Below, piece after piece: positions 14,297 through 38,278 of a DNA stretch of 64,000 nucleotides (its first letter is position 1; each line of letters opens with the position of its first letter). The stretch spans positions 1 through 64,000 of the forward strand of contig NZ_VDMA02000018.1 of assembly GCF_006334915.2 (NCBI RefSeq), read 5' to 3'. The DNA comes from Microbispora catharanthi. Its GTDB lineage: Bacteria; Actinomycetota; Actinomycetes; Streptosporangiales; Streptosporangiaceae. The position numbers were made by a program, and so were the translations under genes. Under the pieces are notes generated by a model. It did not search any database and was not told the DNA's origin. It saw nothing but the letters and a program-made list of their open reading frames with translations.

Positions 14297-14638
14297 ATGG
14301 GTGTGAGCGTCGAGGAGTTTCTCGCCATGCTGGACCGGTTGCCCGAGGTGAGCAAGGGCGAGGGCGGCGACTGGGTCTCGGTCAAGGTGCGCGGCAAGGG
14401 TTTCGGCTACCTGTGGGAGCGCACCGAGACGGTGGGCCTCAAGGCGACGATCGAGGAGCAGATCGCGCTGGTGGCCGAGCGGCCCGAGGTGTTCGAGCCG
14501 CAGTTCACCGCCGGACGTTTCGGCTGGGTCGTGGTCCATCTGGCGAAGATCGACGCTGACGAGTTGTTCGAGCTCGTCACCGAGGCGTGGTGCCTCACCG
14601 CGCCGAAGTCCCTCGTCGAAGCGCACGAATCCCGGTAG
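14297..14638 (+). CDS. MmcQ/YjbR-family DNA-binding-like protein
   Basis: 113 residues. The layout LPEVSKGEGGDWVSVKVRGKGFGYLWE, then PEVFEPQFTAGRFGWVVVHLAKID and ELVTEAWCLTAPKSLVE is that of the MmcQ/YjbR family (CyaY-like double-wing fold). Function is unknown; the name DNA-binding is from structure similarity only. It is divergent from the sterol-type P450 and convergent with a FadR-type regulator. An earlier ATG/GTG would add poorly conserved residues, so this start is preferred. Confidence 0.75.
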   Translation: MGVSVEEFLAMLDRLPEVSKGEGGDWVSVKVRGKGFGYLWERTETVGLKATIEEQIALVAERPEVFEPQFTAGRFGWVVVHLAKIDADELFELVTEAWCLTAPKSLVEAHESR

Positions 14639-14651
14639 CGGCGGGGCGCCG

Positions 14652-15389: not shown

Positions 15390-15448
15390 GGCCGGGCCCT
15401 ATTCCTTCCTGGCCGGGCCCTATTCCTCCTGGCCGTGCCATTCCTCCT
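15390..15448. repeat. Three imperfect ~20-bp tandem repeats
   Basis: Three head-to-tail units of 21, 20 and 18 bp built on GGCCGGGCCCTATTCCTCCT at 15390-15410, 15411-15430 and 15431-15448. The last units encode the repetitive C-terminus (GQEEWHGQEE) of the LuxR regulator and the first lies beyond its stop, so copy-number change would lengthen or shorten that protein's tail. Confidence 0.7.
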
Positions 15449-22489: not shown

Positions 22490-23298
22490 AGTTCCGGTTG
22501 AAGGCCCTGCAGCGGATGCGGGAGCCCGACGAGCTCGACTCCCCGACCCTGCTCGCCTCCCCGCGAGGCTGGATCGCCACGTTCGTCGTGCTCATCGTGG
22601 TCGTCGCCGCGGGGGCGTGGTCGTTCGTCGGCCGGCTGCCGGTCACCGTCACCGCCAAGGGGCTGCTGACCCATCCGGCGGGCACCGCCCAGCTGCAGAG
22701 CCCGTACACCGGGACCGTGCGGACCATGATGGTGAGTCCCGGCCGGCGGGTGGTGCGCGGGCAGGCGGTGGCGGAGGTCCTGCGGGGCGACGGCACCGTG
22801 CGCACCGTGAGCAGCCCGTTCACCGGCGAGGTCGTCACCGTCTCGGCGAGCGAGGGCGCGATGGTCCGCGAGGGCGACGGGCTGCTCGCGATGGAGAGGA
22901 CCGACGCCCCCCGCGACCGCCTTGTCGCGATGCTGTTCGTGCCGGGCGACCACGCGCTCGGCATCGCCCCCGGCCGTACGGTCGACCTCGCGGTCTCCGA
23001 CGCCCCGCCCGGCGTGTTCGGGCTGCTGCGCGGCAGGGTGACCTCGATCAGCGCCTACCCGCTGATGGCGGAGGGCGTCGCCGGCCTGGTCGGCGGGGAA
23101 CTCGCGGCCCGCGGCTACACCACCGCGGAGCCGCCCCGCCTGGTGGTCGTCGACCTCGTCCCCGACCCCGGGACCACCTCCGGCTACTCCTGGACGACCG
23201 AGACCGGTCCCCCGATGAAGCTGCGGTCGCAGGTCACGGTGACGGGCACTGTCACGCTCAGCAGCCAGACGCCCTTCAACCTGCTCCTCGGACGCTGA
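22486..23298 (+). CDS. HlyD-like NHLM secretion adaptor
   Basis: 270 residues from a GTG overlapping the SagB stop. A single membrane segment (WIATFVVLIVVVAAGAWSFVG, residues about 30-50) is followed by lipoyl-like half domains (QSPYTGTVRTMMVSPGRRVVRGQAVAEV and SSPFTGEVVTVSASEGAMVREGDGLLAM). This is the short membrane-fusion-type protein of NHLM bacteriocin export loci. In a Gram-positive cell it would anchor in the cytoplasmic membrane and assist the two ABC proteins that follow. The SPFTGEV motif is duplicated between the two halves. Confidence 0.85.
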   Translation: MKFRLKALQRMREPDELDSPTLLASPRGWIATFVVLIVVVAAGAWSFVGRLPVTVTAKGLLTHPAGTAQLQSPYTGTVRTMMVSPGRRVVRGQAVAEVLRGDGTVRTVSSPFTGEVVTVSASEGAMVREGDGLLAMERTDAPRDRLVAMLFVPGDHALGIAPGRTVDLAVSDAPPGVFGLLRGRVTSISAYPLMAEGVAGLVGGELAARGYTTAEPPRLVVVDLVPDPGTTSGYSWTTETGPPMKLRSQVTVTGTVTLSSQTPFNLLLGR

Positions 23299-23309: not shown

Positions 23310-25562
23310 ATGAGCCAGGTCACGGCCCCCCGCGCCGACGCCTCACCGCCCCGCGCACCGCGCGGACGCGGTCCCCGCAAACGGGGCGGCCGGCGCGGGA
23401 GCACGCCGACCGTCATCCAGATGGAGGCCGTCGAGTGCGGGGCCGCCGCCCTCGCCATGATCCTCGGCCACTACGGCAGGTTCGTGCCGCTGGAGGAGCT
23501 GCGGGCCGCCTGCGCGGTGTCCCGGGACGGCGCGAAGGCGTCCAGCGTGATCGCCGCCGCCCGCAAGTACGGGTTGGAGGCCAAGGGCTTCCAGATGGAG
23601 CTGGACGACCTGCGCGACATCGTCAAACCGGCGATCATCTTCTGGGCGTTCCAGCACTTCATGGTCGTCGAGGGCATCCGCACCCGCTTCGGCAGGCCGG
23701 TGGTGGCGGTCAACGACCCCGCGAGCGGCCCGCGCCTGCTCGACTGGGACGAATTCGACTCGGGCTTCACCGGCATCGTGCTGACCTTCGAGCCCGGGCC
23801 CGGGTTCCGGCCTGGCGGCCGGCCCACCCGCGTGGCCGAGGCGCTGCTGTCGCGCCGCATGCCCTCCGGCCGGGCGCTGCCGCTGGTGCTGCTGGCCAGC
23901 CTGCTGCTGGTCGTGCCCGGGATCATCGCGCCGGCGTTCAGCCGGGTGTTCATCGACCACATCCTCACCGGCCGCGACCCCGGCTTCATCCTGCCGCTGC
24001 TGCTGGCGATGTCGATGACCGCCCTGGCGATGTTCGTGCTGACCTCGGTTCAGCGGCACTATCTGCTGCGGATGGAGATACGGCTGGGGCTGGTCAGCTC
24101 CGCCCGTTTCTTCCGCCATCTGCTGCGCCTGCCGGTGGAGTTCTTCCTGCAACGCAGGCCCGCCGAGGTCGCCAGGCGGGTGTCGGCCAACGACACGGTC
24201 GCCGAGATCCTGTCCAGGGACCTGGCGATCACCGTCGTCAACCTCGTGCTGGTGCTCTTCTACGCGGTCGTCCTGATCCGGTACGACCTGCTGCTCGGCC
24301 TCATCGGCGTGGGCATGGCGCTGCTCAACATCCTGGTGCTGCGGCAGGTGTCCAGAGCCAGGACCGACGCGGTGGCCGCGCTGCGGGCCGATCTCGGCAA
24401 CCTCACGTCGGCCACCTTCAACACCCTGCAGCTCGTGGAGACCGTGAAGGCCACCGGCGCCGAGCCCAGCGCGTTCCAGCGGTGGGCGGGCTTCCTGGCC
24501 AAGGCCGTGACCGCCCGGCAGCGGCTGGGCGTGCCCAGCGCGGTCATCACGGTCGTGCCTCCGCTGATCGCCGGGGTCAACAGCGGCCTCATCCTGCTCG
24601 TCGGCGGCCTGCGGGTGGTGGACGGCGCGGTCAGCGTCGGCCTGCTGGTGGCCTTCCAGAGCCTGCTCGGCGCGCTGTCGCGGCCGGTCACCCAGCTCAC
24701 CAACCTCGGCGGGCGCCTGCAGGACATCTCGGCCGACATCACCCGGCTGTACGACGTGGAGCGTCATCCCCGCTCGCCCGTCTTCGACCGGCCGGACAGG
24801 CCCGCCGGCAGCCGGCTCGACGGGGCGATCACCTTCGAGGACGTGACGTTCGGGTACAACCCGCTGGCCAAGGCGGTGATCAAGGACGTGTCGTTCTCGG
24901 TGGTGCCCGGCCGGCGGGTGGCGATCGTCGGGAGCTCGGGGAGCGGGAAGTCGACCATCGGCCGGCTCGTGGCGGGGCTCTACCGGCCGGCGTCGGGCCG
25001 GGTGCTGCTCGACGGGCGCGACCGCGAGGAGATCTCCAGGACCGAGCTGGCGGCCTCGGTCGCGTACGTCGACCAGGACATCTCGCTGTTCGAGGGCACG
25101 GTGCGCGACAACCTCACGCTGTGGAGCGAGGACGTCTCCGACGAGGTCGTCACCGCCGCGCTGCACGACGCGGCCATATTCGACGTCATCTCCGCCCGCC
25201 CCGGCGGGCTCAACAGCCGGGTGCGCGAGGGCGGGCGCAACTTCAGCGGCGGGCAGCGCCAGCGGCTGGAGCTGGCCAGGGCGCTGGCCACGCAGCCGAC
25301 CCTGCTCGTCCTCGACGAGGCGACCAGCGCGCTCGACCCGGAGACCGAGCGGGTGATCGCCGACAACCTGCGCCGCCGGGGATGCGCCTGCCTGATCATC
25401 GCTCACCGGCTGTCGACCGTACGGGACGCCGACGAGATCCTCGTGCTGTACCAGGGCGAGGTGGTGGAGCGCGGCACGCACGAGGACCTCGTGCGCCTCG
25501 GCGGGCACTACGCGCGGCTGATAGAGAACGCCCAGCCGGGCGGTGAGGGAGCGGACCAATGA
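23310..25562 (+). CDS. NHLM peptidase-containing ABC exporter (C39 peptidase, PCAT)
   Basis: 750 residues with AAGGAGA before the ATG. Residues 35-140 are a C39 cysteine peptidase: C43 (MEAVECGAAA), H116 (FQHFMVV) and D136 (VNDPASG) form the catalytic triad. Six membrane helices follow, then an ATPase with GSSGSGKST, FSGGQRQR and LLVLDEATSALD. It should cut the NHLP leader at its small-residue site and export the modified core. The first 33 residues are Pro/Arg-rich, longer than usual. It overlaps the next gene by 4 bp (ATGA). Confidence 0.93.
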   Translation: MSQVTAPRADASPPRAPRGRGPRKRGGRRGSTPTVIQMEAVECGAAALAMILGHYGRFVPLEELRAACAVSRDGAKASSVIAAARKYGLEAKGFQMELDDLRDIVKPAIIFWAFQHFMVVEGIRTRFGRPVVAVNDPASGPRLLDWDEFDSGFTGIVLTFEPGPGFRPGGRPTRVAEALLSRRMPSGRALPLVLLASLLLVVPGIIAPAFSRVFIDHILTGRDPGFILPLLLAMSMTALAMFVLTSVQRHYLLRMEIRLGLVSSARFFRHLLRLPVEFFLQRRPAEVARRVSANDTVAEILSRDLAITVVNLVLVLFYAVVLIRYDLLLGLIGVGMALLNILVLRQVSRARTDAVAALRADLGNLTSATFNTLQLVETVKATGAEPSAFQRWAGFLAKAVTARQRLGVPSAVITVVPPLIAGVNSGLILLVGGLRVVDGAVSVGLLVAFQSLLGALSRPVTQLTNLGGRLQDISADITRLYDVERHPRSPVFDRPDRPAGSRLDGAITFEDVTFGYNPLAKAVIKDVSFSVVPGRRVAIVGSSGSGKSTIGRLVAGLYRPASGRVLLDGRDREEISRTELAASVAYVDQDISLFEGTVRDNLTLWSEDVSDEVVTAALHDAAIFDVISARPGGLNSRVREGGRNFSGGQRQRLELARALATQPTLLVLDEATSALDPETERVIADNLRRRGCACLIIAHRLSTVRDADEILVLYQGEVVERGTHEDLVRLGGHYARLIENAQPGGEGADQ

Positions 25563-28534
25563 GCGTCTCGACCGTGACGCCGTCCTCGTCGTTCTCGCCG
25601 TTCTTCACCGACGCGGCCACGCCCATCGACTACTCGGCCGACCGGCTGCTCGTGCTGGCCGACCTGCGCGAGGTGCTGCTGGTCGAGCGCGGCGCGGTCG
25701 ACCTTTTCGCCGTACGCCTGGAGAACGGCAGGCCGGTCGGCAGGTGGAACTACCTGTGCCGGGTGCGGCAGGGCGCGCTGGTGCTCGGCTCGCCCCGGGG
25801 GCCCAGGCACAGCATCGTCGGGCGGCCGGTGCTCGGCACCCGCGTGTCGCGCCTGCCGCTGGCCCGGCTGGAGGGCCTGTCGGCCCGGCGCGTCGACGGC
25901 CCGTCGGAGTCGGGGAAGGCGGTCCGCGCCCTGCCCACCCGCGAGTACGGCCTGGCGGTGCGCCAGTTCGTGCGGGGCCTGGAGGCCGGGGTGGTGGCGC
26001 TCGCCGCGTCGATGCGCGACACGCTGCCCCCGCGCGACTTCGTCCCGCTGTCGCCGGACGAGCCCACCGTCGTCCGCAAGGGCGAGGCCGTCCGGTCGGT
26101 CGACGGCGTCCGGTGGATCACCGTAGAGGACGGCGTGGTCGAGATGCCGGAGGGCGTCGCCGGTCAGCTCAGCGCGGGCGCCGAGGTCTGCGTCACCGAG
26201 CGGGACTGGCTGGCGGCGCTCGGCCCGGCCCGGCTGCGCGCCCGGTCGACCCTCGACCTGCTGGGCGCGGGCGAGCTGTGGCACCGGTGGGTCGAGCACA
26301 CCACCCGCTTCCTCTACATGATCGACCGGCGGATCGAACGCCGGAACTCGACCGAGCTGAGGGCGCTGACGAGCCGGGCCGAGCGGGGCGGGGACGTGCT
26401 GCGCACCACCGCCCGCGGGTTCGACACGCTGGTGCGCGACACCGAGGCGCGGGTCCGCCTCGCCGACGTGGCAGGGGATCCGCCCGCGCTGGCCGCCGCG
26501 CGCCTGGTGGCCTCGCACGCCGGCTTCTCGGTGACCGCGCCCCCGCCGGGAGGCGCGCACGGCGGCCGGATCGACCCGCTCCAGGCCATCGCGCTCGCCT
26601 CAGGCGTGCGCACCCGCCGGATCAGGCTGGACGACCACTGGTGGCGGCGGGACATCGGGCCGATGGTGGGCTACCGCTCCTCCGACGGGGCGCCGGTGGC
26701 GCTGCTGCCCATCGGGTCGCGCTACGTCGTGGCCGCGCCGGGGGAGGAGCGCGTCACCCCGGTCACCGCGGCGGTGGCCGGCACGCTGACCCGGCACGCC
26801 GACGTGCTGTACGAGCCGCTGCCGCCGACCGTCACCGGGGTGGGCGGGCTGTTGCGGTTCGGCCTGGCCAAGAACCGCAAGGACCTGTGGACCCTGCTCA
26901 GCCTCGGGACGCTGGTGGCCTGCATCGGCCTGCTGGTGCCCGCCATGACCGGCCTCGTGCTCGGCACGTATGTGGCCAGGGCCGAGCGGGAGATGATCGT
27001 GCAGGGCGCGCTGCTGGTGATCGCGGGCTCGCTCGTGGCGGCCGCGCTGTCGGTGGTGCAGAACTTCGCCGCGCTGCGCATCGAGGGCAGGTCGTCGGCC
27101 CGCCTGCAGGCGGGCGCGTGGATGCGGCTGCTGTCGTTGCCGGCGACGTTCTTCACCAACTACTCCACGGCCGAGCTGGGCACCACGGTCCTCGGCGTCA
27201 GCGCGGTGCAGGAGACGCTGTCCGGCGTCATGACGACGGCGGCCCTCGGCCTGTTCGCCGGCCTGGCCAACCTCGTGCTCGTCTATCTCTACGACGTGCG
27301 GCTGGCGCTGATCGCGACGGCGCTCGTGCTGGCCGGGGTGCTCGTGTGCGCGGTCGCCGGCTACTTCGAGGTGCGGCTGCAACGCCGGATCTACACCCAC
27401 GAGCAGCGGCTGTCGTCGCGGGTCTTCCAGCTTCTGACGGCTGTGCCGAAGCTGCGGGTGGCGGCGGCCGAGGACCGGGCCTTCGGGGTCTGGTCGTCGG
27501 AGTTCCTCAAGGCGCGCGGCATCGGCGTGTCCGCCCGCCGGGTGCAGAACCTCGTCACGACCTTCAACGCAGGCTTCCCGCTGGTCGCGTCGGTCATCGT
27601 CTTCGCCGTGGTGGCCGGGCCGATGCTCGGGGACGTGACCGTCCCCGCGTTCCTGGCGTTCTTCGCCGCGTTCAACCTGCTGCTGGCCTCGGTGCTGCAG
27701 TTCACCGGCGCGGCGATCACCGCGATGAGCGTGGTGCCCATGCTGGAGCGGCTGCGGCCGATCCTGGCGGCCGAGCCGGAGGATCACGACGGCAAGGCCG
27801 ACCCGGGCGAGCTGTCGGGCCGGATCGAGCTGTCGCGGGTGTCGTTCCGGTACGGCGAGGACGGGCCGCTCGTCCTGGACGGGGTGGACCTGTCGGTCGA
27901 GCCCGGCGAGTTCGTCGCGGTCGTCGGCCCGACCGGCAGCGGCAAGTCGACGATCCTGCGGCTGCTGCTGGGCTTCGAGTCGCCGACTTCGGGGACGGTC
28001 CTGCACGACGGCCAGGACCTGGGCGAGCTGGACATCGGTGCGGTGCGCCGCCAGTGCGGGGTGGTCCTGCAGAACAGCGCGCTGCTCGCCGGCGACATCA
28101 AGGCCAACATCATCGGCAGCACCGACCACACGGTCGACGACGCGTGGGACGCCGCCGGCATGGCGGGGATCGCCGACGACATCGCGAACATGCCGATGGG
28201 CATGCACACGGTGCTGTCGGAGGGCACCAACACGCTGTCGGGCGGGCAGCGGCAGCGCATCATGATCGCACGCGCCCTCGTCTCGCACCCCCGCATCGTG
28301 CTGTTCGACGAGGCGACCAGCGCGCTGGACAACCCCACCCAGAAGATCGTCACGGAGAGCACCCGCCAGCTCAACGCCACCCGGATCGTGATCGCGCACC
28401 GGCTCTCGACGATCAGGGACGCCGACAAAATCGTGGTGCTCGACCGCGGGCGCATCGTCCAGCAGGGCAAATACCACGAGCTGCTTGAGGATGCTGACGG
28501 GCTGTTCGCCCGGCTGGCGCGACGGCAGATCTGA
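25559..28534 (+). CDS. NHLM bacteriocin-type ABC transporter, second subunit
   Basis: 991 residues. A long N-terminal region without peptidase residues (about 400 aa, with the RGAVDLFAV segment typical of the NHLM ABC2 family) precedes six membrane helices and an ATPase with GPTGSGKST, LSGGQRQR and IVLFDEATSALD. The family always travels with the PCAT and HlyD-like partners, probably as a heteromeric exporter. The N-terminal region may recognise the leader or regulate transport. Last gene of the operon; a hairpin follows 18 bp after the stop. Confidence 0.88.
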   Translation: MSVSTVTPSSSFSPFFTDAATPIDYSADRLLVLADLREVLLVERGAVDLFAVRLENGRPVGRWNYLCRVRQGALVLGSPRGPRHSIVGRPVLGTRVSRLPLARLEGLSARRVDGPSESGKAVRALPTREYGLAVRQFVRGLEAGVVALAASMRDTLPPRDFVPLSPDEPTVVRKGEAVRSVDGVRWITVEDGVVEMPEGVAGQLSAGAEVCVTERDWLAALGPARLRARSTLDLLGAGELWHRWVEHTTRFLYMIDRRIERRNSTELRALTSRAERGGDVLRTTARGFDTLVRDTEARVRLADVAGDPPALAAARLVASHAGFSVTAPPPGGAHGGRIDPLQAIALASGVRTRRIRLDDHWWRRDIGPMVGYRSSDGAPVALLPIGSRYVVAAPGEERVTPVTAAVAGTLTRHADVLYEPLPPTVTGVGGLLRFGLAKNRKDLWTLLSLGTLVACIGLLVPAMTGLVLGTYVARAEREMIVQGALLVIAGSLVAAALSVVQNFAALRIEGRSSARLQAGAWMRLLSLPATFFTNYSTAELGTTVLGVSAVQETLSGVMTTAALGLFAGLANLVLVYLYDVRLALIATALVLAGVLVCAVAGYFEVRLQRRIYTHEQRLSSRVFQLLTAVPKLRVAAAEDRAFGVWSSEFLKARGIGVSARRVQNLVTTFNAGFPLVASVIVFAVVAGPMLGDVTVPAFLAFFAAFNLLLASVLQFTGAAITAMSVVPMLERLRPILAAEPEDHDGKADPGELSGRIELSRVSFRYGEDGPLVLDGVDLSVEPGEFVAVVGPTGSGKSTILRLLLGFESPTSGTVLHDGQDLGELDIGAVRRQCGVVLQNSALLAGDIKANIIGSTDHTVDDAWDAAGMAGIADDIANMPMGMHTVLSEGTNTLSGGQRQRIMIARALVSHPRIVLFDEATSALDNPTQKIVTESTRQLNATRIVIAHRLSTIRDADKIVVLDRGRIVQQGKYHELLEDADGLFARLARRQI

Positions 28535-28594: not shown

Positions 28595-28780
28595 TCAGTA
28601 GCGGGGCCTGCGGCTCAACACGATTCCGGCGATGAGGAACACCAGGCCGAGCCCGCCGTACACGAAGGCGTGGGTGGTGGCGGGCGGCTTCACGCTGGCG
28701 TTGGCGACGGCCAGCCCGAGGCCCACGATGCCGCTGATGTAACAGAAGATCGCGACGAAGATTTTCCAGAAGGGGCTCAT
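28595..28780 (-). CDS. Small two-helix membrane protein in the TOMM cluster
   Basis: 61 residues, beginning MSPFWKIFVAIFCYISG. Two hydrophobic helices (about residues 6-27 and 39-57) flank a short polar turn, and the tail RRPRY is basic, placing both ends inside. The ATG overlaps the methyltransferase stop by 4 bp, so it is co-transcribed with the P450 and methyltransferase. I do not recognise a family. Possible roles are self-protection, a membrane scaffold for tailoring enzymes, or an export helper; none is shown by sequence. Confidence 0.75.
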   Translation of the reverse strand: MSPFWKIFVAIFCYISGIVGLGLAVANASVKPPATTHAFVYGGLGLVFLIAGIVLSRRPRY

Positions 28781-29613
28781 GACGTACTCCGTTCGGACTC
28801 GGCGGGACCGCCCGGTGCGGTCCCGGCGACGACGAGGCCGAGCAACATGACCCAGGCGTCGGGGTCGGCGCGGAAACGCCGCCACCGGTCGGCCGCCAGG
28901 GCGAGCTCGGGCAGGGACAGGGCCCCGGAGGCGACCAGCGGCGCCAGCCGCTCCGGGCCCAGGTGGGGGGCGAACGCCTCGGTGGGGCGGTCGTCGTTGG
29001 TGGTGGCGAACGGGCGCAGCACCACGTCGCCGAAGCCCGCACGGCGAAGGAGCCGGGTGAGCTTGCGCCCGATCAGCCGGTCGCCGCCCGCCTGCCGCTG
29101 CGCGCCGGTCATGCGGTTGTGGACGCCGGCCATCTCGGGGTACATCGGGTCGGCCAAGCCCCACAGCATCGCGTCCACCTCGATCACGATCAGCCGCCCG
29201 CCCGGCCGCAGCACCCGCAGGGCCTCGGCCACCACCGTCGCCGGGTCGGCCACGTGCTGCAGTACGTATCGGAGCAGGACGGTGCCCACGGCCCCGTCGG
29301 CGAGCGGCAGCCGTACGGCGTCGCAACCGAGCAGCGGAACCCGCGTTCCGGACGCGTGCGCCAGCAGCGCCGTGTCGATGTCGGCGGCCAGCATGGGCAG
29401 GTCCGGCAGGGCGGCACGCAGCCGCCGCGTGACCGCGCCGGAGCCCGCCCCGAGCTCCAGCAGCGGCGCGGGCAGGCCGACGTCGAGCAGGACCCGCAGT
29501 TCCTCGTCGAAGGAGAGCTCGGCCTGGGCCTCCAGGCGCGCCAGCTCGCCGCGCAGGCCTCCGGCGGTCGTCGTGGCCGGGTCGTACGACCCGGCGCCCG
29601 TCGCGGCGGTCAC
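28777..29613 (-). CDS. SAM-dependent methyltransferase in the TOMM cluster
   Basis: 278 residues from a GTG that overlaps the P450 stop by 4 bp. LLELGAGSGAVTRRLRAAL is motif I, MLAADID motif II, and LRVLRPGGRLIVIEVD motif III of the class I fold. It resembles small-molecule methyltransferases; the likely target is the azole peptide (N-, O- or C-methylation) or a piece attached to it. Second gene of a P450 - methyltransferase - small membrane protein operon on the strand opposite the precursor. Confidence 0.85.
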   Translation of the reverse strand: MTAATGAGSYDPATTTAGGLRGELARLEAQAELSFDEELRVLLDVGLPAPLLELGAGSGAVTRRLRAALPDLPMLAADIDTALLAHASGTRVPLLGCDAVRLPLADGAVGTVLLRYVLQHVADPATVVAEALRVLRPGGRLIVIEVDAMLWGLADPMYPEMAGVHNRMTGAQRQAGGDRLIGRKLTRLLRRAGFGDVVLRPFATTNDDRPTEAFAPHLGPERLAPLVASGALSLPELALAADRWRRFRADPDAWVMLLGLVVAGTAPGGPAESERSTS

Positions 29614-30929
29614 CGCGGCCTCGGGACCATGAGCATGCCGTGCCGGGGGCGCAGCGTGACCAGGGCCTCGGGCTCGACCGGGAAGCCGGGGACGAGCTCC
29701 GGGCGCACGGCGCGCAGCAGCACGGCCAGCACGAGGGTGGCCTCGACCATCGCGAAGTGGCGGCCGACGCACACTCGGGGGCCGCCCCCGAAGGGGAGGT
29801 ACTGGTGGCCCGCGTGGGTGTGCTCGGCCGCGAACCGGTCCGGTGCGTACGTCTCCGGGTCGGGCCAGTACCGCGGATCCCGGTGGAGTACGTACGGGCT
29901 GACGCACACGAGCGTGCCGGGCGGTATCGGGTAGCCGCCGACGACGTCGGCCTCGACGGAGCGCCGGGAGATGAGCCACACGGGCGGGTACAGCCGCATG
30001 GCCTCCTTGATCGCCCGCTGGCAGGTCGTCAGCCGGGGCAGGTCGGCCGCGGTGGGGGTCCGGTCTCCGCCCAGCACCTCGTCCACCTCCGCGCGCACCG
30101 CCCGTGCGGCGTCGGGATGACGGTCGAGGAGGTAGAGCGTCCAGGTCAGCGCCTTGGCCGTGGTCTCGTGCCCGGCCATGACGATCGTCAGCACCTGGTC
30201 GCGCAGGTCGGTCGCGGTCATCGCGTGCCCCGAGGCCAGCATCGCGCCGAGCAGGTCGTGGCCCTCCTGCCCGGTGGCCCGGCGGGCGGCCACGATCGCC
30301 CGGGTGACGCCGTCGAGGAACGCCTTCGCCCGGCGGAACCCCTCCCGGCCCCCTCCCTCGGAGGCGGGGTCGAAGTGGCCGATGAAGCGGTTGACCTCGT
30401 CCACCGCCCGGCCGAAGCCGTCGCCGACGCCCGCGATGTCCGCGCCGAGCATGGCCCGCGCGATGACGGTGAGTGTGAGAGCGGTCAAGTCGTGGTCGAC
30501 CCGGACCGCCGCGCCCTCCTCTCCGGCCCGCCGCCACCGCTCGGTCAGGCCGGCCGCGGCGTCGGTCATGACCTGGTCGAACCGCTCGACCTCGGTCGGG
30601 CGGAAGGCCGGGGCGATCATCTTGCGCTGCCGGGCCCACTCCTCGCCGCCGCTGGTCAGCAACCCGTTGCCGAGCAGGGGGCGCAGCATGTCGTCGTCGG
30701 GCGTGCGGTCCTTGGTGTAGTTGGCGCCGTTGTCCTTCAGCACGTGCCGGGCCAGGTCGGGCCGGTGCAGCATGTAGACGGGCGCTCCCTCGGCCTCGTG
30801 CCTCGTCACGTCGCCGTAGGCGGCCATCTCGGTGACGAAGCGCAGCGGGTCCTCCCGCATGCTGCGCAGGCTCTGGGCGCCGTCCGGACCCGGCGGCAGG
30901 GATACGTAACCGCTGTGCGTATCGGCCAT
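29610..30929 (-). CDS. Cytochrome P450 (CYP102/CYP4-like) in the TOMM cluster
   Basis: 439 residues. I-helix AGHETTAKALTW, ExxR helix KEAMRLYPPVW and heme loop FGGGPRVCVGRHFAM are all intact, so it should be an active monooxygenase. The sequence style is that of the CYP4/CYP102-like group, different from the short soluble P450 at 33387. It probably hydroxylates or crosslinks the peptide. A perfect GAATACGTATTC palindrome sits 18 bp upstream of the ATG, inside what must be the promoter/leader. It heads a three-gene operon divergent from the precursor. An upstream in-frame extension lacks similarity. Confidence 0.88.
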   Translation of the reverse strand: MADTHSGYVSLPPGPDGAQSLRSMREDPLRFVTEMAAYGDVTRHEAEGAPVYMLHRPDLARHVLKDNGANYTKDRTPDDDMLRPLLGNGLLTSGGEEWARQRKMIAPAFRPTEVERFDQVMTDAAAGLTERWRRAGEEGAAVRVDHDLTALTLTVIARAMLGADIAGVGDGFGRAVDEVNRFIGHFDPASEGGGREGFRRAKAFLDGVTRAIVAARRATGQEGHDLLGAMLASGHAMTATDLRDQVLTIVMAGHETTAKALTWTLYLLDRHPDAARAVRAEVDEVLGGDRTPTAADLPRLTTCQRAIKEAMRLYPPVWLISRRSVEADVVGGYPIPPGTLVCVSPYVLHRDPRYWPDPETYAPDRFAAEHTHAGHQYLPFGGGPRVCVGRHFAMVEATLVLAVLLRAVRPELVPGFPVEPEALVTLRPRHGMLMVPRPR

Positions 30930-31160: not shown

Positions 31161-31553
31161 ATGTCTTTGGACCCGAGACAGCGCGCGGAATTCGTGAACG
31201 CGTACACCCGCGTTCTGATCACGGCGTGGTCGAGTGAGGAATACTCGGCCCGGCTGGACTCCGACCCCCGCTCGGCTCTGGCCGAGTCCGGTCTGGAGCT
31301 GCCGGCGGGAGCCGAGGTCGTACTCGTCCGCAACATCCCCGAAGGCCACCACGACAGCAACATCGAGGTACAGGTCGCGCTGTGGGAGCGGGGCCTCGAG
31401 ACGGGCCGTTTCGAACTGCACATCCCCGAGACGCCGCAGGTCGACATGGCGGAGCTCAACGAGGGCGACCTCGACTCCATCGCGGCCGGCGTGTCCTCGG
31501 CCGAGTCGATCGACATCAACTGCTGCTGCTGCCCCTGCTGCTGCTGCACCTGA
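31161..31553 (+). CDS. TOMM precursor peptide, NHLP leader with Cys8 core
   Basis: 130 residues behind GGGAGG. The leader is nitrile-hydratase-alpha-like (AWSSEEYSARLDSDPRSALAE, then GLELPAGAEVVLVRNIPEG), the known NHLP type. A distinctive insertion follows before a small-residue stretch (LDSIAAGV, residues about 103-110). The C-terminus SSAESIDIN-CCCCPCCCCT ends in eight cysteines around one proline. With the cyclodehydratase and dehydrogenase in the cluster these should become thiazoles in two tetrads. Cleavage probably falls after AAG, leaving a 20-residue core, but a second protease cut nearer the cysteines is possible. Divergent from the P450 operon. Confidence 0.95.
   Translation: MSLDPRQRAEFVNAYTRVLITAWSSEEYSARLDSDPRSALAESGLELPAGAEVVLVRNIPEGHHDSNIEVQVALWERGLETGRFELHIPETPQVDMAELNEGDLDSIAAGVSSAESIDINCCCCPCCCCT
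31521..31550 (+). other. Core region CCCCPCCCCT of the TOMM precursor
   Basis: Residues 121-130. All eight Cys codons are TGC, so the DNA is four TGC, one CCC, four TGC, then ACC: a near-perfect trinucleotide repeat. Full cyclisation would give two tetrathiazole runs separated by proline. Thr130 could also cyclise only if followed by a residue, so it should stay as a free C-terminal threonine. Confidence 0.85.
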
Positions 31554-31581: not shown

Positions 31582-32526
31582 ATGTCCACGATCGCCGAGC
31601 AGGCGAACCCCGTACACGTGCGCTCCCTGCGCAAGCGGTACGGTCCGGTGAACGCGGTCGAGGAGGTGGACCTCGACGTGCGGAGCGGCGAGGTGTTCGC
31701 CCTCCTCGGGCCGAACGGCGCCGGCAAGACCACCACGGTCGAGATCCTGGTGGGGGTTCGCCGGCGGACCTCCGGCGACGTGCGCGTCCTCGGCCGTGAC
31801 CCGGCCGAGGACGCGCCCGAGTGGCGCGCGCGGATCGGCGTCGTCCCGCAGACGACGGGGGCGTACACCGACCTGACCGTGCGCGAGGTGGTCGAGCACT
31901 TCGCGGCGTTCTACCCCGCGCCGCTGCCGGTGGCCGAGGTGATCGACATGGTCGGCCTCGGCAAGCAGGCGCGCAAGCAGGCGCAGACGCTCTCCGGCGG
32001 GCAGGCCCGGCGGCTCGACGTCGCGGTCGGCGTCATCGGGGACCCCGATCTGATCTTCCTGGACGAGCCGACGACGGGACTCGACCCCGTCGCCCGCAGG
32101 GAGGCGTGGGACCTCGTCCGCTACTTCACCGACCGTGGCAAGACCACCGTGCTCACCACCCATTACCTGGACGAGGTCGAGGCGCTGGCGCAGCGGGCGG
32201 CCGTCATCGTCGGGGGACGGGTCGTCGAGTCCGGCCCGGTCGCGGAGCTGGGCGGCCGGCGCGCGACACCCGCAGCCGTGAGCTTCGCCAGGGCGGACAG
32301 GCTCGACAGGAGCCTGCCCGCGCTGCCGGGCGACGCCGTGGTGGAGGAGGCGGAGGGTCTGGTGGTCGTACGCACGCACCACCCCACCGAGGCCATGGCC
32401 GCGCTGCTGCCCTGGGCGGCCGCCTCCGGTGTGCGCGAACTGCCGGACCTGCGCATCCACCGGCCGTCGCTTGAGGAGATCTACCTGGACCTCATCCGGA
32501 GCAACCAGGAAGGCGGTGTCGTGTGA
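31582..32526 (+). CDS. ABC exporter ATPase, DrrA-like, in the TOMM cluster
   Basis: 314 residues. GPNGAGKTTTVEIL (Walker A), LSGGQARRLDVAVG (signature) and LIFLDEPTTGLDP (Walker B) define an ABC-2 type drug-export ATPase; the C-terminal domain after GGRVVESGPVAEL is the DrrA-like extension. It begins 28 bp after the precursor gene with GGAGGG upstream, and is followed by its permease with the stop overlapping the ATG. Beside the PCAT pair it is a second exporter, perhaps for self-resistance. Confidence 0.88.
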   Translation: MSTIAEQANPVHVRSLRKRYGPVNAVEEVDLDVRSGEVFALLGPNGAGKTTTVEILVGVRRRTSGDVRVLGRDPAEDAPEWRARIGVVPQTTGAYTDLTVREVVEHFAAFYPAPLPVAEVIDMVGLGKQARKQAQTLSGGQARRLDVAVGVIGDPDLIFLDEPTTGLDPVARREAWDLVRYFTDRGKTTVLTTHYLDEVEALAQRAAVIVGGRVVESGPVAELGGRRATPAAVSFARADRLDRSLPALPGDAVVEEAEGLVVVRTHHPTEAMAALLPWAAASGVRELPDLRIHRPSLEEIYLDLIRSNQEGGVV

Positions 32527-33383
32527 TGAGCGCTCCCAACGCAGCCCTCACCCAGGAGAGGGGCGCGGTGGTGCTCGATCCCGCCCGCTCGATCGTGTGG
32601 CGGTCGGCCGTCTCGCGGTCGTCGGTCGAGCTCAAGTCGTTCTTCCGCAACCGGCAGTCGCTGGTCTTCACGCTGCTGCTGCCCATCGTGCTGCTGGTCG
32701 TGCTCGGCTCCATCTTCTCGGGGACCGTGCCCGGCACCCACACCGACTTCAAGCAGATGTTCATCGCGGGCATCATCGCCTGTGGCGTGATGAGCGTCAG
32801 CTTCAACGGGCTGGCCATCAGCGTCGCCATCGAGCGCGACACCGGGATGATCCGCCGGCTGGCCTCCAGCCCGATGCCGAAGTCCGCCTACTTCATCGGC
32901 AAGGTGGTCAGGGTGGCCGTGACCGGCACCCTGGAGACGCTCCTGCTGCTCGCGGTGGCCGTGCTGGCGTTCGGGCTGCCGCTGCCCTCGACCACCGCCC
33001 GCTGGGAGACGCTCGTGTGGGTGCTGCTGCTCGGCGCGGTGGCCTGCACGCTGCTGGCCGTGGCGTTCAGCTCGGTCATCCCGAACGCCCGGTCGGCCTC
33101 GGCCATCGTCACCCTGCCGTTCCTGGTGCTGCAGTTCATCTCGGGGGTGTTCTTCCCCTACAGCCAGCTGCCGGCGTGGATGCAGACGGTCGCGGCCCTG
33201 TTCCCGCTCAAGTGGATGACCCAGGGACTGCGCTCGGTGTTCCTGCCCAACGATTTCGCCCACGTCGAGCCCGCGGGCGTGTGGGAACTCGACCGCGTGG
33301 CGCTCGTGCTGGCCGCGTGGTGCCTCGCCGGGCTCGCGCTGAGCTTCCTGACCTTCCGCTGGCGCGGGCCCAACGTCCGCTGA
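32526..33383 (+). CDS. ABC-2 type permease in the TOMM cluster
   Basis: 285 residues; GTG 32523 is an alternative start. Six hydrophobic helices, with the ABC-2 features FFRNRQSLVFTLLLPIVLLVVLGSIF, RRLASSPMPKSAYFIGK and FISGVFFPYSQLPAWMQ. Partners the ATPase upstream (1-bp overlap). Ends 3 bp from the convergent P450 stop. Substrate assumed to be the mature peptide. Confidence 0.87.
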   Translation: MSAPNAALTQERGAVVLDPARSIVWRSAVSRSSVELKSFFRNRQSLVFTLLLPIVLLVVLGSIFSGTVPGTHTDFKQMFIAGIIACGVMSVSFNGLAISVAIERDTGMIRRLASSPMPKSAYFIGKVVRVAVTGTLETLLLLAVAVLAFGLPLPSTTARWETLVWVLLLGAVACTLLAVAFSSVIPNARSASAIVTLPFLVLQFISGVFFPYSQLPAWMQTVAALFPLKWMTQGLRSVFLPNDFAHVEPAGVWELDRVALVLAAWCLAGLALSFLTFRWRGPNVR

Positions 33384-33386: not shown

Positions 33387-34550
33387 TCAGGAGAGCCGGA
33401 TCCGGAACTCGCTCAGCCGCCGCGGCACGAGCACAGGCGCCCAGGCGGGCGGGGCGCCGTCCGGGCGGATCGCGGGGAAGCGCTCGGCCAGGCCGCGCAG
33501 CAGCAGCGCGCCGGCCTGCCGGACGAGGGGCGCGCCCAGGCAGAAATGGGTGCCGGCGCCGAAGGCGAGGTGGGGATTGGGAGACCGGGTCAGCACCAGG
33601 TCGCCGGGGCGGTCGAAGACGGCCGGGTCCCGGTTGGCCGCCGCGACCACGGCGAGCACCCGCGCCCCGGCGGGAATGGCCGCGTCCCCGAAGGACACCT
33701 CCGCGGTCGTCACCCTCGCCGTGAAGGGGATGGGCGCCTCCAGCCGCAGCAGCTCGTCGACCGCCGTACGGGCGAGGTCGTCGCCGCCCTCGCGAAGGGC
33801 GGCCAGGGCCTCGGGGCGAGGCAGCAGCCAGAACAGCGCGTTGCCCACCATCTCGGCCAGCGGGCGCCAGCCGCCGACGACGGCCAGCGAGAGGATGCCC
33901 AGCATCTCGGGCCGGGTCAGCCGCTCGTCCGCGGCCAGCCGCCCGATCGACCCGCCGGGCCCGCGCGCCACGTGCGCGTCCAGGAAGCGGGTCAGCTCGC
34001 CCATCGCCACGCGGCCCTCCCGTGCGGCCTGCGGCCCGGCCAGCGGGTCGAGGTTGACCGAGGCCCGCCGCGCCAGGTCCGCGAAGGCCGCCTCGTCCTC
34101 GCGCGGCACGAGCAGCGTCCGGGCCAGCACGCCGGTCGCGAACGGCTCGCCGAGGTCACGGGTGACCTCGGCCGCGTCCGCCAGCCCGTCGAGCAGGCCG
34201 TCCACGACGGCGGCGATGCCGGCGGCGAGCTCGCGTACCGCGGCGGGGCCGAGCAGGGCCATGCCGGGGCCGCGCAGCCGATTGTGCTCGGGCGGGTCGG
34301 TGGTCAGCATCGAGGCGGGCAGGTCGTCGTCGCGCACCCGCTCGCGCTGTCCCAGGGCGGCCGAGAACCGGGGGTCTTTGAGCGCGCTCGCGCAGTGCTC
34401 GTGCGCCGTGAGCAGCCACATCCGGGACGTGACGTCGAAGTGGACCGGATCGTTGGCCCGCAGCCAGTCGTACGCCGGATACGGGTCGGATCTGCCCGCC
34501 GGCGAGAACGGGTGGGCCAGACCGGCCGGAAGCCGGCGGAGAGCGGTCAT
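33387..34550 (-). CDS. Atypical cytochrome P450 lacking the I-helix acid-alcohol pair
   Basis: 387 residues, a soluble actinomycete-type P450. The heme loop FGAGTHFCLGAPLVRQ and ExxR helix (DELLRLEAPI) are present, but where the I-helix normally reads AGxET or AGxDT it has VVGGWRPLAEMVGNAL, with no acid or threonine. Such P450s often do not hydroxylate; known exceptions do crosslinking, cyclisation or peroxygenase chemistry. It is convergent with the exporter permease and divergent from the amine oxidase operon, across a region with a 12-bp direct repeat. Probably tailors the peptide or its biosynthetic partner. Confidence 0.85.
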   Translation of the reverse strand: MTALRRLPAGLAHPFSPAGRSDPYPAYDWLRANDPVHFDVTSRMWLLTAHEHCASALKDPRFSAALGQRERVRDDDLPASMLTTDPPEHNRLRGPGMALLGPAAVRELAAGIAAVVDGLLDGLADAAEVTRDLGEPFATGVLARTLLVPREDEAAFADLARRASVNLDPLAGPQAAREGRVAMGELTRFLDAHVARGPGGSIGRLAADERLTRPEMLGILSLAVVGGWRPLAEMVGNALFWLLPRPEALAALREGGDDLARTAVDELLRLEAPIPFTARVTTAEVSFGDAAIPAGARVLAVVAAANRDPAVFDRPGDLVLTRSPNPHLAFGAGTHFCLGAPLVRQAGALLLRGLAERFPAIRPDGAPPAWAPVLVPRRLSEFRIRLS

Positions 34551-34599: not shown

Positions 34600-34682
34600 G
34601 GCACGGCCACGCTACTACAGAGCGGTCGCCGCCGGGATGAATGCGAACAACTGCGGACCGAACGGGCCGATGGGAGGCAGCG

Positions 34683-35867
34683 ATGCAGGTCGATGTAGTG
34701 GTCGTGGGCGCGGGCGTCAGCGGCCTGACCGCCGCACGGCGGCTGCGCGCCGCCGGTCTGGCCGTCACGGTGGTGGAGGCCAGAGACCGCGTCGGCGGGC
34801 GGGTGCGCACCTACCGGCCCGGCGACGGCGGCTCCCCGATGGAGCTGGGGGCTCAGGTCGTCCACGGCGACCGCAACCCCGTGTGGGACGTGCTGGAACC
34901 GGACGCGGCCGAGCCGGTGCGGCCGGGCACGGCCCTTGTCGCCGCGGCGGGGCGGGTGCTGCCGCTGGGCGTGCTCGCCCGGCGGGGACGGCCGCCGTGG
35001 GCGGTCGAGCAGAGCCTGCTGCGGGACCCGGGGGAGGACGTGCCCGTCGCAGGGCGGCTCACCTCCGGCGACCAGGCCGAGTGGCTGCGGCAGAACTGGG
35101 CGGCCGACCCCGAGTCCCTCAGCGCGGTGGGCATGGCCGCCGGACACCGAGCCGACGACGTCGGAGAGGGCCGATTCGCCGTCCGCGGAGGGTTCGACCG
35201 GCTGCCCGGCCTGCTGGCCGATGGGCTCGACGTGCGGCACGGCAGCCCGGCCAGGAGCATCGCCTGGTCGCCGGGCCGGGTGGAGACCCGCCTCGACGAG
35301 GGCGCGGTGACGGCCGCGGCGGCGGTGGTGACCGTGCCTCCGCCCGTGGTCGCGGGCGGAGCGCTCGCGATCGCGGACATGCCGGCCCGCAAGCGGGCGG
35401 CGGCCGAGTCGCTGCGCCTCGGCGACGCCTGGTGCGGGGTGGTGACGCTGTCGCGGCCCGCCCCGGAGTCGGCCGTCGTGTTCGACTCCGAGGGCGGGCT
35501 GGGCTTCGTCACCTGCACCGCCGGCAGCACGCGCGTCCTGGTGGTGGCCAAGGCCGGGGCCGCCGCGCGGGCGCGCGAGGCGGCCCGCGGAGGGCCGCCC
35601 CCGCTGGGCCGGGTGCTGCCCTGGGCCGCCGACGCCCGGTGCGAGCACGTCGAGGCGGCCGACTGGGGGGCGGACGCCTGGGCGACCGGTGCGTTCACCT
35701 ATCCCCGGGTCGGCGGCCTGTGGGCGCGGGCGGCGTGGGCGGAGCCGATGGGCGGCACGGTGTTCTTCGCGGGCGAGGCCACGGCGGCCGGTGTCCCTAT
35801 GGTTCAGGCGGCCATGGCCAGCGGTGACCGCGCGGCCGGAGAGGTCCTGGAGGCGGTAGGGCGATGA
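34683..35867 (+). CDS. Flavin-containing amine oxidoreductase
   Basis: 394 residues from the ATG after GGGAGG; an upstream ATG would add 14 residues with no similarity. [21 protein letters not shown] is the Rossmann FAD motif, [18 protein letters not shown] the RhGG amine-oxidase motif, and the C-terminal [21 protein letters not shown] completes FAD binding. It could oxidise an amine or form a C-C or C=N bond on the peptide. First of a plus-strand run with Rieske oxygenase, hydrolase and VOC protein, each overlapping the previous one. Confidence 0.87.
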
Positions 35868-36793
35868 TCGGGAAATTACACACGGGCTGGTATTTGCTGG
35901 CGTTCGAGGAGGAACTCGCCGAAGGGCTGAACCCCCTGCTGCTCGGCGGGCGCAGGCTGCTCGCCGTACGGGACGGGTCGCGCGTCCGCGTGTTCGACGG
36001 GCTGTGCCCGCACCGGGGTGCGGCCCTCGGCCACGGCGGCACCCTGGACGGCGATTGCGTCATCTGCCCCTTCCACGGCAAGCGGGTGGCACTCGGGGAC
36101 ACGGCGCGACGCTGGTCGGTCGCCGAGTACGCGGTCGAGCAGGCGGGCGCGGCGGTGTTCGTGCGGCTGTCCGCGGATGACGACCGGGGCTTCCAGCGGG
36201 CCATCAAGGAGGTGGCCGACGGCAACATCGTCGTGGGCGCGGTGATCCAGCCGGTGGCGGTCCCTTCGGAGTACGTGGTGGAGAACGCCTTCGACGCCGA
36301 GCACTTCCACCAGGTCCATCTCGTGCCCCGGGTGATCGGCATGCGGGTCTCGCCCTGCCCCGACGGCGAGCTGGCGATCGAAGGGGAGTTCCGCACCAAG
36401 GCCCCGCCGTGGGAGCGGGAGCGCCGGCTCGACTTCGCCTCCCGGTTCTACGCCCGGGCCTTCAGTCCCAGCCTCGTCGTGACCGAGCTGGGCACCGCGG
36501 AGGCGCCGTACACGATCATCACGGGCGCCGTGCCCACCTCTGGCGGCTGTGTGGGGCGGGTCGCCATCGCACTGCCGCCGGAGCGCGCCGAGGCGCTCGA
36601 CGCGCTGGTCCACGGCGCGCGGTACGCCTTCGAGCAGGACCGCGTCGTCTGGGACCACCTCGATCCGGACGCGCCGCAGCGCTACGACGCAGGTGACCGG
36701 CCCGTGCTGGCCTTCCGCCGGTTCTGCGCCACCTTCGGCGCCGTTCCACCGGCCGGAACCCCTTCCGCGGCGGTGACGGGGGAGCCGGTGTGA
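35864..36793 (+). CDS. Rieske non-heme iron oxygenase
   Basis: 309 residues, overlapping the amine oxidase stop by 4 bp. The [2Fe-2S] ligands are C48-P-H50 and C68-P-F-H71. The mononuclear iron site is N141-xx-D144-xx-H147-xxxx-H152 ([15 protein letters not shown]). This is the layout of single-component-type terminal oxygenases such as KshA/DAF-36-like or related natural-product tailoring enzymes. It needs a reductase, not encoded nearby. Reactions in the family include hydroxylation, desaturation and oxidative cyclisation. Confidence 0.9.
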
Positions 36794-37578
36794 TGCGGGT
36801 GCACACGAGCGGGAGCGGCCCGGCCGTGCTGTGGCTCCACGGCTACACGATGGACTCCTCCACCTGGCGCGACCTGTGGGCGCTGCTGCCCGGCCGGCGG
36901 CACGTCGGCGTCGACCTGCCGGGCCACGGAGGGTCCGGCCCGATGCGGCCCGGCACGACGCTGCCGGGCCTGGCGGCCGAGATCGCGGCCGTCGCGCGGG
37001 CCGAGGGGGCGCACGACGTCGTGGCCCTGTCCTTCGGGTCGCTGGCGGGGATCCAGCTCGCCGTGGACGCCCCCGACGTCGTACGGCGCCTCGTCGTGGC
37101 GGCTCCCACCATCGCGGGCGCCCCCAGCGAGCCGGGGACGGCTCCGCGTTATCGCGAGCTGATGGCGTTGCGGCGGGCCGGCGCGGACGGCGCCGCGCTG
37201 GCGGACGTCTGGATGTCCTCCCCGCCCGACATCTTCCGCGGCACCCAGGCGCACCCCCGGCTGCGGGCGAGCCTGCGGACGGTCATCGCCCGGCACGGCT
37301 GGGACGAACTGCGCACGGGCGCGATGGCGGCGTTCCACCGGCACACGCACACCGACGAGGCGCTCGGCGCGATCAGGGCCGACACGCTGGTCCTCGTCGG
37401 GGACGCCGAGATGCCGACGTTCGCGGCCAACGCCGACCGGCTGGGCGCGGTCGTCCCCCGCTGCCGGGTGGTCGAGATGGCGGACGCCGGCCACCTGTGC
37501 CTGATCGAGCGCCCGGCGGCCGCCGCGCGGCTCATCTGGTCCCATCTGGAAAGGAGCCGGGTAGGTGCCCAGGCGTGA
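36793..37578 (+). CDS. Alpha/beta-hydrolase
   Basis: 261 residues. LWLHGYTMDSSTWRDLW carries the oxyanion-hole HG, ALSFGSLAG the nucleophile elbow with Ser (Ala replaces the first Gly), VLVGDAEMPT the acid, and DAGHLCLIERP the catalytic His. An intact, active-looking hydrolase. It overlaps the Rieske stop by one base. Possible jobs are ester or amide hydrolysis in peptide maturation, or release of a protecting group; it could also act in trimming the leader remnant. Confidence 0.85.
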   Translation: MRVHTSGSGPAVLWLHGYTMDSSTWRDLWALLPGRRHVGVDLPGHGGSGPMRPGTTLPGLAAEIAAVARAEGAHDVVALSFGSLAGIQLAVDAPDVVRRLVVAAPTIAGAPSEPGTAPRYRELMALRRAGADGAALADVWMSSPPDIFRGTQAHPRLRASLRTVIARHGWDELRTGAMAAFHRHTHTDEALGAIRADTLVLVGDAEMPTFAANADRLGAVVPRCRVVEMADAGHLCLIERPAAAARLIWSHLERSRVGAQA

Positions 37579-38278
37579 GACGTACGCGCAGGGCTCGCCC
37601 TGCTGGGTGGACTACATGGCGGCCGACCCGGAGGGAGCACGGGAGTTCTACGCGAGCCTGTTCGGCTGGACCTTCGACGAGCCCGAGGAGTACGGCTATC
37701 GCCTGGCGCGGCAGGCCGGGGAGGTCGTCGGAGGATTCGGCCGGGTGCCACCGGGACGGGGGTTGACGCCCACCTGGAACACCTACCTGGCGGCGAAGGA
37801 CGCCGACGCGGTGGCCGGGCGGGTGACCGAGCTCGGCGGCACGGTGGTGTTCGGGCCGCTCGGCGCCGGCGAGGACGGGCGGTTCCTGTTCGCGGTCGAC
37901 GCCACGGGCGCGTCGGTCGGTTTCTGGCAGGGGCACTGGGCGGAGGGCATCGTCCTGGTCGACGAGCACGGCGCGACCTGCGGCCACGAGCTGTGGGCGG
38001 CCGATCCCGCCGCCGCCCGCGCCTTCTACGCGGGGCTCTTCGGGGAGGAGCCGGAGCACGGACGGCAGGTGCGCGGCGTGCCGCACGGCGTGTCCCCGCA
38101 GTGGGTGTCGTATTTCCTCGTGGACGACGTGCCCTCGGCGGCCGTGGCCGCGGAGCGGGCGGGCGGCCGGGTCGCCGAGGCGTGGGACGACGGGCGTGAG
38201 GCGGTGGTGCGCGACCCGTGGGGCGCGCTGTTCGGCGTCAGGGACGGCCGGTCCCGCTCCGCGGACGGAACCAGATGA
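37565..38278 (+). CDS. VOC-family protein with two glyoxalase-like modules
   Basis: 237 residues from a GTG behind AAAGGAG, overlapping the hydrolase end by 14 bp. Two related halves (CWVDYMAADPEGAREFYASLFGW and CGHELWAADPAAARAFYAGLFG) make one betaalphabetabetabeta pair set, as in glyoxalase/bleomycin-resistance proteins. Members are metal-dependent isomerases or dioxygenases, or ligand-sequestering resistance proteins. In this cluster, binding of the finished peptide for self-protection is as likely as catalysis. The 3' end overlaps a small gene on the other strand by 41 bp. Confidence 0.82.
   Translation: MPRRETYAQGSPCWVDYMAADPEGAREFYASLFGWTFDEPEEYGYRLARQAGEVVGGFGRVPPGRGLTPTWNTYLAAKDADAVAGRVTELGGTVVFGPLGAGEDGRFLFAVDATGASVGFWQGHWAEGIVLVDEHGATCGHELWAADPAAARAFYAGLFGEEPEHGRQVRGVPHGVSPQWVSYFLVDDVPSAAVAAERAGGRVAEAWDDGREAVVRDPWGALFGVRDGRSRSADGTR

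Follow-up and report, generated by a model that had tools for sequence, protein, structure and literature searches.

The window, meaning the whole 64,000-nucleotide stretch of Microbispora catharanthi DNA analysed here, encodes a 130-aa precursor peptide on the plus strand at 31161-31553. The peptide ends in SIDIN-CCCCPCCCCT immediately before the stop codon; ORF position and ending were both as a sequence-only reading of this DNA had claimed. By eye, a GGAGG lies a few bases 5' of the ATG. The gap from the stop codon to the next gene, of the DrrA-type ABC kind, is 28 bases. Scanning for promoters and terminators gave no hits. The cluster is listed below in genomic order, with homologues counted in 12 loci (L002-L013) obtained from a contig scan for relatives.

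15420..18275, minus strand: large LuxR-type regulator, probably that of the cluster; homologue beside the cluster in G293, G378, G269, G395, G1124, G1283, and G1231
18696..20966, plus strand: fused leader-binding and YcaO cyclodehydratase, 756 aa (TIGR03604, TIGR03882; LynD, 4v1t)
20984..22489, plus strand: SagB-type azoline oxidase, 501 aa (TIGR03605 over cut-off; CyaGox, 5lq4, E 6e-67)
22486..23298, plus strand: HlyD-type secretion protein of the NHLM kind (TIGR03794, 149.1 bits, just below the cut-off of 156.2)
23310..25562, plus strand: C39 peptidase ABC exporter, NHLM ABC1 (TIGR03796, 971.9 bits, cut-off 853.3; Peptidase_C39)
25559..28534, plus strand: second NHLM ABC exporter (TIGR03797, 836.6 bits, cut-off 709.4)
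28595..28780, minus strand: small protein, 61 aa, membrane-type as judged by eye (homologue in 11/12 relatives)
28777..29613, minus strand: SAM methyltransferase (Pfam Methyltransf_11; 12/12)
29610..30929, minus strand: cytochrome P450 a (Pfam p450; 11/12)
31161..31553, plus strand: precursor peptide, 130 aa (ORF; relatives from the contig scan and genome searches)
31161..31490, plus strand: nitrile-hydratase-like leader, residues 1-110, with L(X)4L (L99, L104) and AAG site
31491..31520, plus strand: variable linker VSSAESIDIN (length and sequence differ among 29 Cys-core precursors)
31521..31550, plus strand: core CCCCPCCCCT (sequence and conservation)
31582..32526, plus strand: DrrA-type ABC ATPase (family match; homologue adjoins the precursor in 11/12)
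32523..33383, plus strand: DrrB-type ABC permease (family match; 11/12)
33387..34550, minus strand: cytochrome P450 b (family match; 12/12)
34641..35867, plus strand: FAD amine oxidase family protein (Pfam Amino_oxidase; 12/12)
35864..36793, plus strand: Rieske oxygenase (Pfam Rieske; 12/12)
36790..37578, plus strand: alpha/beta hydrolase (family match; 12/12)
37565..38278, plus strand: glyoxalase/VOC-fold protein, KbpA-like (homologue in 8/12 within the flanks compared)

The one miss for P450 a, the membrane protein, DrrA, and DrrB was in each case L013, within the stretch compared. The VOC protein resembles the AfsK-binding KbpA at 111 bits (cut-off 250), and could perhaps tie the cluster to development or act in self-protection. 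Further downstream (42709-44613, minus strand), a 634-aa protein carries repeated EPFDAFGT segments behind a start that looks sigma-factor-like by eye, and tandem DNA repeats occupy 43337-43608 within its ORF.

The leader had been called NHLP type in the sequence-only reading, and homology bears this out. Against NCBIfam leader_NHLP (TIGR03793) it scored 36.5 bits (E 3.1e-9), below the curated cut-off of 50.9; hence, the leader is of NHLP type, yet is not a scored member of that family. In a whole-genome search, the NHLP leader family gave a single match, at 26.7 bits. A profile built from 12 precursors matched the solved NHLP leader 8tb1 at E 8.8e-9 and nitrile hydratase alpha at E 1.8e-11, homology that places the leader among the wider NHLP-type (proteusin) leaders. 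The AlphaFold2 model of the precursor was confident over residues 1-90, bar about 61-70, with pLDDT below 50 at residues 110-125 and 127-130. Foldseek matched the leader model to 8tb1 with a probability of 0.99 and an rmsd of 1.6 over 43 columns, but the E of 0.07 was weak, and none of the matches to this model was at E 0.001 or better. AAG at residues 108-110 is a predicted Gly-Gly-like, export-cleavage-type site and, combined with the NHLM C39 exporter (TIGR03796 and TIGR03797 both over cut-off), would fit the wider proteusin arrangement. The L(X)4L segment was present in 28 of the 29 Cys-core precursors described below, the remaining one having L(X)4M; in another system, according to excerpts of the report, L(X)4L and helix 1 are required for NHLP-YcaO engagement (PMC12455567).

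Family searches upheld the placement of a cyclodehydratase and a SagB-type oxidase in the precursor's cluster. The cyclodehydratase scored 252.6 bits against TIGR03604 (cut-off 219.25) and 136.4 bits against TIGR03882 (36.9), and TIGR03605 identified the oxidase. Best solved-structure matches of the two enzymes were the cyanobactin proteins LynD, TruD, and CyaGox: cyclodehydratase residues 9-754 aligned with LynD (E 2.6e-182) and TruD (E 1.4e-179), both of which act on Cys, and the oxidase also aligned with McbC, more weakly than with CyaGox. The NGxAxG...ExxERD segment of the cyclodehydratase was kept in 23 of 23 full-length homologues and SxxxExxER in 22 of the 23 (identity at least 46%), G1089 having Gly for Ser; the C-terminus, NPTSVFF, is unlike that of LynD. 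The oxidase W-K-Y was kept in 32 of the 32 rows listed, some of which represent one gene in two loci. Three YcaO proteins are encoded in the genome, and the window holds one, the cluster cyclodehydratase. Each of the other two (L139, L140; C7, C33) lies no more than about 8 kb from a radical SAM gene, which suggests other RiPP clusters.

In addition to the contig scan, leader homologues were found in 15 of 394 genomes in a class-level search at E 1e-3 (7 with a Cys core), in 10 of 392 in a single-genus search at E 1e-9 (Streptomyces by inference, G293 being on the contig of L012; 7 with a Cys core), and in 11 of 200 in a family-level search (10 with a Cys core). These samples overlap, L002, L003, L005, and L006 being the loci of G291, G1279, G1271, and G1285. 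Six of the 10 Microbispora genomes in the family-level sample encoded the precursor, and that of M. siamensis, the closest named relative, was identical to the window's across 130/130 residues. A plasmid search returned one record, a Streptomyces cadmiisoli homologue without a Cys core.

The search for NHLP precursors with a CCCCPCCCC-type end, which had been put forward as a check of the original observation, came out in its favor: 29 of 34 distinct leader homologues ended in a Cys-Pro-Cys block, which was absent from five. The criterion for a Cys-core ending did not include proline, and proline was present in all 29. Across the three positions either side of it, 162 of 174 cells were Cys, with 8 Ser, 3 Thr, and 1 Asn. 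The last core residue was Thr in 26 of the 29 precursors, Ser in two, and Ala in one; this terminal Thr, also heterocyclisable and conserved, had no place in the sequence-only reading. In the window itself, 9 of the last 10 residues are heterocyclisable (Cys or Thr). Core variants among the relatives included CNYCCCPCCCCT, GCCCCPCCSCT, YCCCCSPCCCCT, CCCCCPCCTCT, CCCCCSSPCCCCT, CACCCPCCCT, CCCCTPCCCA, and YCCNPCCCQS. Non-heterocyclisable edge replacements included Ala at the last residue (G1231) and Asn plus Gln (G1089), and the G095 core has Ala inside the N-terminal Cys run.

The Cys-Pro-Cys block is better conserved than the leader. In pairs with a leader identity of 0.3 to 0.5, core identity was 0.74-0.76, or 0.92 when Cys, Ser, and Thr were pooled, and the two pairs with leader identity below 0.3 gave core values of 0.65 and 0.88. 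The linker running from the AxG site to the block was variable, with L007 and L013 each encoding two precursors that have like cores and unlike linkers. Excerpts of earlier work describe NHLP cores as hypervariable after the cleavage site (PMC2887384). The Cys-Pro-Cys family runs against this rule, its core being kept in 29/34 homologues while the linker varies.

The core DNA of the window is a TGC repeat, and a CCCPCCC codon pattern, taken by itself, is not unusual; such a pattern turns up by chance in unrelated places, with 17 occurrences in 13 of 396 phylum genomes compared with 10 for a reversed control (own count). The Cys run could thus be a microsatellite or frame accident without a product, an explanation to which we give next to no weight. 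Frame and near-length were kept across several families although some codons had changed, and the run stands behind a conserved leader. Core codons of some relatives differed from the window's (TGT, CCT, TCG, TCA, ACA; 26 of the 29 Cys-core precursors examined). When all 17 pattern sites were translated, only two fell at the end of a leader-type ORF and in its frame (the window and G095); the other 15 had no leader-type ORF, and no second leader type with a Cys-Pro-Cys core was found in the 396 phylum genomes. It is position, frame, and conservation that make the ending significant, and the Cys-Pro-Cys ending is no chance repeat.

A cyclodehydratase was encoded in 25 of 25 Cys-core genomes examined, namely that of the window, 11 and 9 genomes of two sets, and 4 regions, with the genome of L004 left out. 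In the first set, 12/12 Cys-core handles had a close cyclodehydratase, at 57-64% identity, or 48% in G122 and G095; as G399 duplicates G293, these handles represent 11 genomes. In the second set it was found in 9/9 Cys-core genomes (57-98% identity), and the four regions were those of G1099, G1069, G1089, and G1124, the gene of the last being truncated where the region ends. Of the 25 genomes, 24 had the cyclodehydratase on the same contig as the precursor, at a distance of about 20 kb or less. In the genome of L011 it was on a 47,420-base contig, about 1.4 kb from the end, and the precursor was on a 62,960-base contig, which a split assembly likely explains. More distant cyclodehydratases (39-42% identity) were also found elsewhere in four Cys-core genomes (L049, L050, L051, L052).

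At E 1e-60, no close cyclodehydratase was found in 4/4 Microbispora genomes without the precursor, nor in G1043 and G1248, which encode leader homologues without a Cys core. The sole copy in G795, also without a Cys core, was 40% identical and 1.5 Mb away; the end of its precursor is similar to that of G143. The G1043 leader homologue ends in VKINCQIL and has a YcaO of 30% identity about 8 kb from it, and YcaO matches of 30-39% were found elsewhere in the genome of G143. In the G143 region (L112, about 7125-15089), the leader homologue itself has the Cys-free end HPALSDIAR and is adjoined by a SagB-type oxidase and NHLM exporters, with no close YcaO in the region. Because of the distant YcaOs in G1043 and G143, and of a Cys-free precursor in the G095 cluster, the presence/absence contrast of cyclodehydratase and Cys core is not clean.

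Contiguous cysteines could bind soft metals, and the core might remain as thiols in a metal-binding or disulfide peptide. We consider this very improbable, given that Cys was replaced almost only by Ser or Thr, which are poor for thiols and tolerable for azoles, and that a cyclodehydratase accompanied every Cys core examined, as did the oxidase in the regions compared. The Ser and Thr swaps fit an azole-forming rather than a thiol constraint, with the caveat that they are partly shared by descent and, by our own reading, go back to only some six or seven independent events. With the core kept as heterocyclisable residues, azoles are favored over thiols, in support of the expectation first drawn from the window alone.

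Surroundings of the Cys-core precursors fell into three classes, and all regions compared shared precursor, cyclodehydratase, and oxidase where the covered stretch reached them. Class I comprised the window, other Microbispora loci, L007-L013, G269, G378, G1124, and G1283, and carried the methyltransferase, P450 a, DrrAB, P450 b, amine oxidase, Rieske, hydrolase, and small membrane protein genes, often also with the VOC protein and LuxR regulator. Microbispora and Streptomyces differed in how the azole/export block is placed relative to the tailoring block. Class II (G1099, G1069) had two precursors, the methyltransferase, P450 a, DrrAB, and a B12 radical SAM protein. Class III (G1089, G095) had the cyclodehydratase, oxidase, and exporters, and in the 40 kb compared no homologue of the window's tailoring enzymes was found. 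Ten Cys-core Streptomyces had their surroundings compared (L007, L010, L011, G293, G269, G378, G1124, G1099, G1069, and G1089), of which seven were class I, two class II, and one class III; for G917 and G937 the search covered the cyclodehydratase alone. In G122, the methyltransferase, P450 a, oxidase, and cyclodehydratase were found on a 26-kb contig from which NHLM exporters were absent. G1231 encoded P450 b, the amine oxidase, Rieske, and hydrolase proteins, a DrrA-like protein, and a luciferase-like monooxygenase, and homologues of the methyltransferase and P450 a were not found in its region by tblastn comparison.

In class II, a KedN5-like B12 radical SAM C-methyltransferase gene lies directly 3' of the second Cys-core precursor:

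L103:16096-18246 (G1099): KedN5-like radical SAM
L105:4167-6254 (G1069), minus strand: KedN5-like radical SAM

KedN5 was the closest family to these proteins, at 311.5 and 331.1 bits (cut-off 700), and a ParA/MinD-like ATPase lies beyond the radical SAM gene in G1069. Radical SAM had no match within the window and was seen only near the class II and G095 relatives. At L070 (G095; about 11738-13863, minus strand), the CACCCPCCCT precursor sits beside a second, Cys-free NHLP-type precursor with the hydrophobic end EVDVNIVVIAIVI. Nearby, G095 also encodes a radical SAM protein and another YcaO protein, shorter than the first, and may use two cyclodehydratases for two precursors.

Six tailoring enzymes are many for so short a core, and hydrolase and amine oxidase homologues occurred in 12/12 relatives. 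The peptide could hence be cut in maturation, with part of the Cys block (e.g., CCCCT) becoming a small oxidised metabolite and the rest serving as scaffold; the freedom of the linker to vary while the block is fixed, as in the like cores and unlike linkers of L007 and L013, agrees with such processing. We regard it as unlikely, however, as the Cys blocks on the two sides of the proline are conserved to about the same degree. The Cys core of G1089, with no homologue of the window's tailoring enzymes found in the 40 kb compared, also speaks against it.

The reading we prefer, and consider likely from sequence comparison, is that the cluster makes a heavily tailored linear azole peptide with up to eight thiazoles in two proline-joined rods, perhaps with a terminal methyloxazole. 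How many rings form, where the peptide is cut, what the tailoring enzymes act on, how export and regulation work, and what the product is and does are inferred as follows. The folded leader would dock on the leader-binding domain of the cyclodehydratase via helix 1 and L(X)4L, whereupon the YcaO domain, with ATP, would convert most or all core cysteines to thiazolines and the SagB-type enzyme would oxidise these to thiazoles. The outcome would be two rods, each of up to four directly joined thiazoles, with proline between them, and the last Thr would perhaps become a methyloxazole. The C39 exporter would cleave after AAG; the two P450s, methyltransferase, flavin amine oxidase, Rieske enzyme, and hydrolase would decorate the peptide or its ends; and export would proceed through the NHLM and DrrAB pumps under control of the LuxR-type regulator.

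Proline cannot become an azole and interrupts a conjugated chain. Its presence in 29/29 Cys-core precursors suggests that it is a required hinge. Eight thiazoles would be an upper limit for the cysteines, with an extra ring from the last Thr possible. More than a bare polythiazole is probably made, since P450s, a methyltransferase, an amine oxidase, a Rieske enzyme, a hydrolase, and exporters, all omitted from the sequence-only reading, are encoded alongside. The pumps suggest a bioactive metabolite, and our guess is a small secreted antimicrobial or another bioactive compound. Binding of metals or nucleic acid, suggested in the sequence-only reading for contiguous thiazoles, would be a putative property. 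Not every core Cys need be cyclised; in carnazolamide, according to excerpts of the report, only 8 of 20 candidate residues are (PMC10676384).

A single core recurs in Microbispora, Streptomyces, Yinghuangia, and further actinobacteria beside differing sets of tailoring genes, which points to one valued scaffold. The simple relatives would represent the bare scaffold and the rich clusters additions by P450s, Rieske, and radical SAM enzymes. Eight adjacent thiazoles, if made, would to our knowledge be among the densest thiazole chains of ribosomal origin. Tantazole, mirabazole, and thiangazole are polythiazolines, i.e., runs of Cys-derived rings, made as C-methylated thiazolines by cyanobacteria and myxobacteria; tantazole and thiangazole end in a Thr-derived methyloxazole, resembling CCCCT. 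We know of no established pathway for compounds of the tantazole/thiangazole type. Class II precursors beside the KedN5-like radical SAM genes end in CCCCT or CCTCT. It is a long shot that these clusters form a ribosomal polythiazole family with fixed proline-hinged oligothiazole rods and a methyloxazole end, class II leading to C-methylated polythiazoline-oxazole chains. If true, class II would show that tantazole/thiangazole-type compounds can be ribosomal.

The core letters had no match in a search of open-access text, and among topical literature (NHLP-thiazole, polythiazole, Rieske/YcaO, Microbispora/YcaO, etc.) no open-access title or abstract opening described the core. Unlike cyanobactins, whose enzymes are the closest of known structure, the window pairs a leader of the NHLP kind with a C39 exporter, and no subtilase match, as expected of a PatA/PatG-type protease, was found among the cluster proteins scanned. 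Plantazolicin has a mixed core. By description, it shares two azole runs and a hinge with the window; its core, in excerpts of the source, has five heterocyclisable residues, two nonpolar ones, then five or six more, and is associated with a methyltransferase (PMC4603692). The hinge is thus two residues in plantazolicin and one proline in the window. Streptolysin S-like cytolysins, as described in the same excerpts, likewise have a contiguous heterocyclisable run (PMC4603692).

The nearest likeness is to the azole proteusins. Carnazolamide, a dehydrazole of the cca cluster, and nostatin A share with the window a nitrile-hydratase-like leader, a YcaO cyclodehydratase, and azoline oxidation, as far as excerpts of both reports describe them (PMC10676384, PMC11583998). 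Carnazolamide, like the window core, has a Cys-rich C-terminus and, in the portion of the report available, eight azoles (160 Da loss), yet its core is longer and mixed, with 20 Ser, Thr, or Cys, unlike that of the window (PMC10676384). The nostatin A core is also described as longer and mixed, at 30 residues, in contrast to the short Cys-Pro-Cys core here (PMC11583998). Both clusters, per the same excerpts, encode a LanM-type dehydratase (PMC10676384, PMC11583998). No such domain was found among the cluster proteins scanned, which sets the window apart from dehydrazole clusters. Azole proteusins, with an NHLP-type leader, a YcaO protein, and azole formation, are the known kind to which this cluster belongs, and the conserved proline-hinged Cys core is a chemically unusual variation on it.
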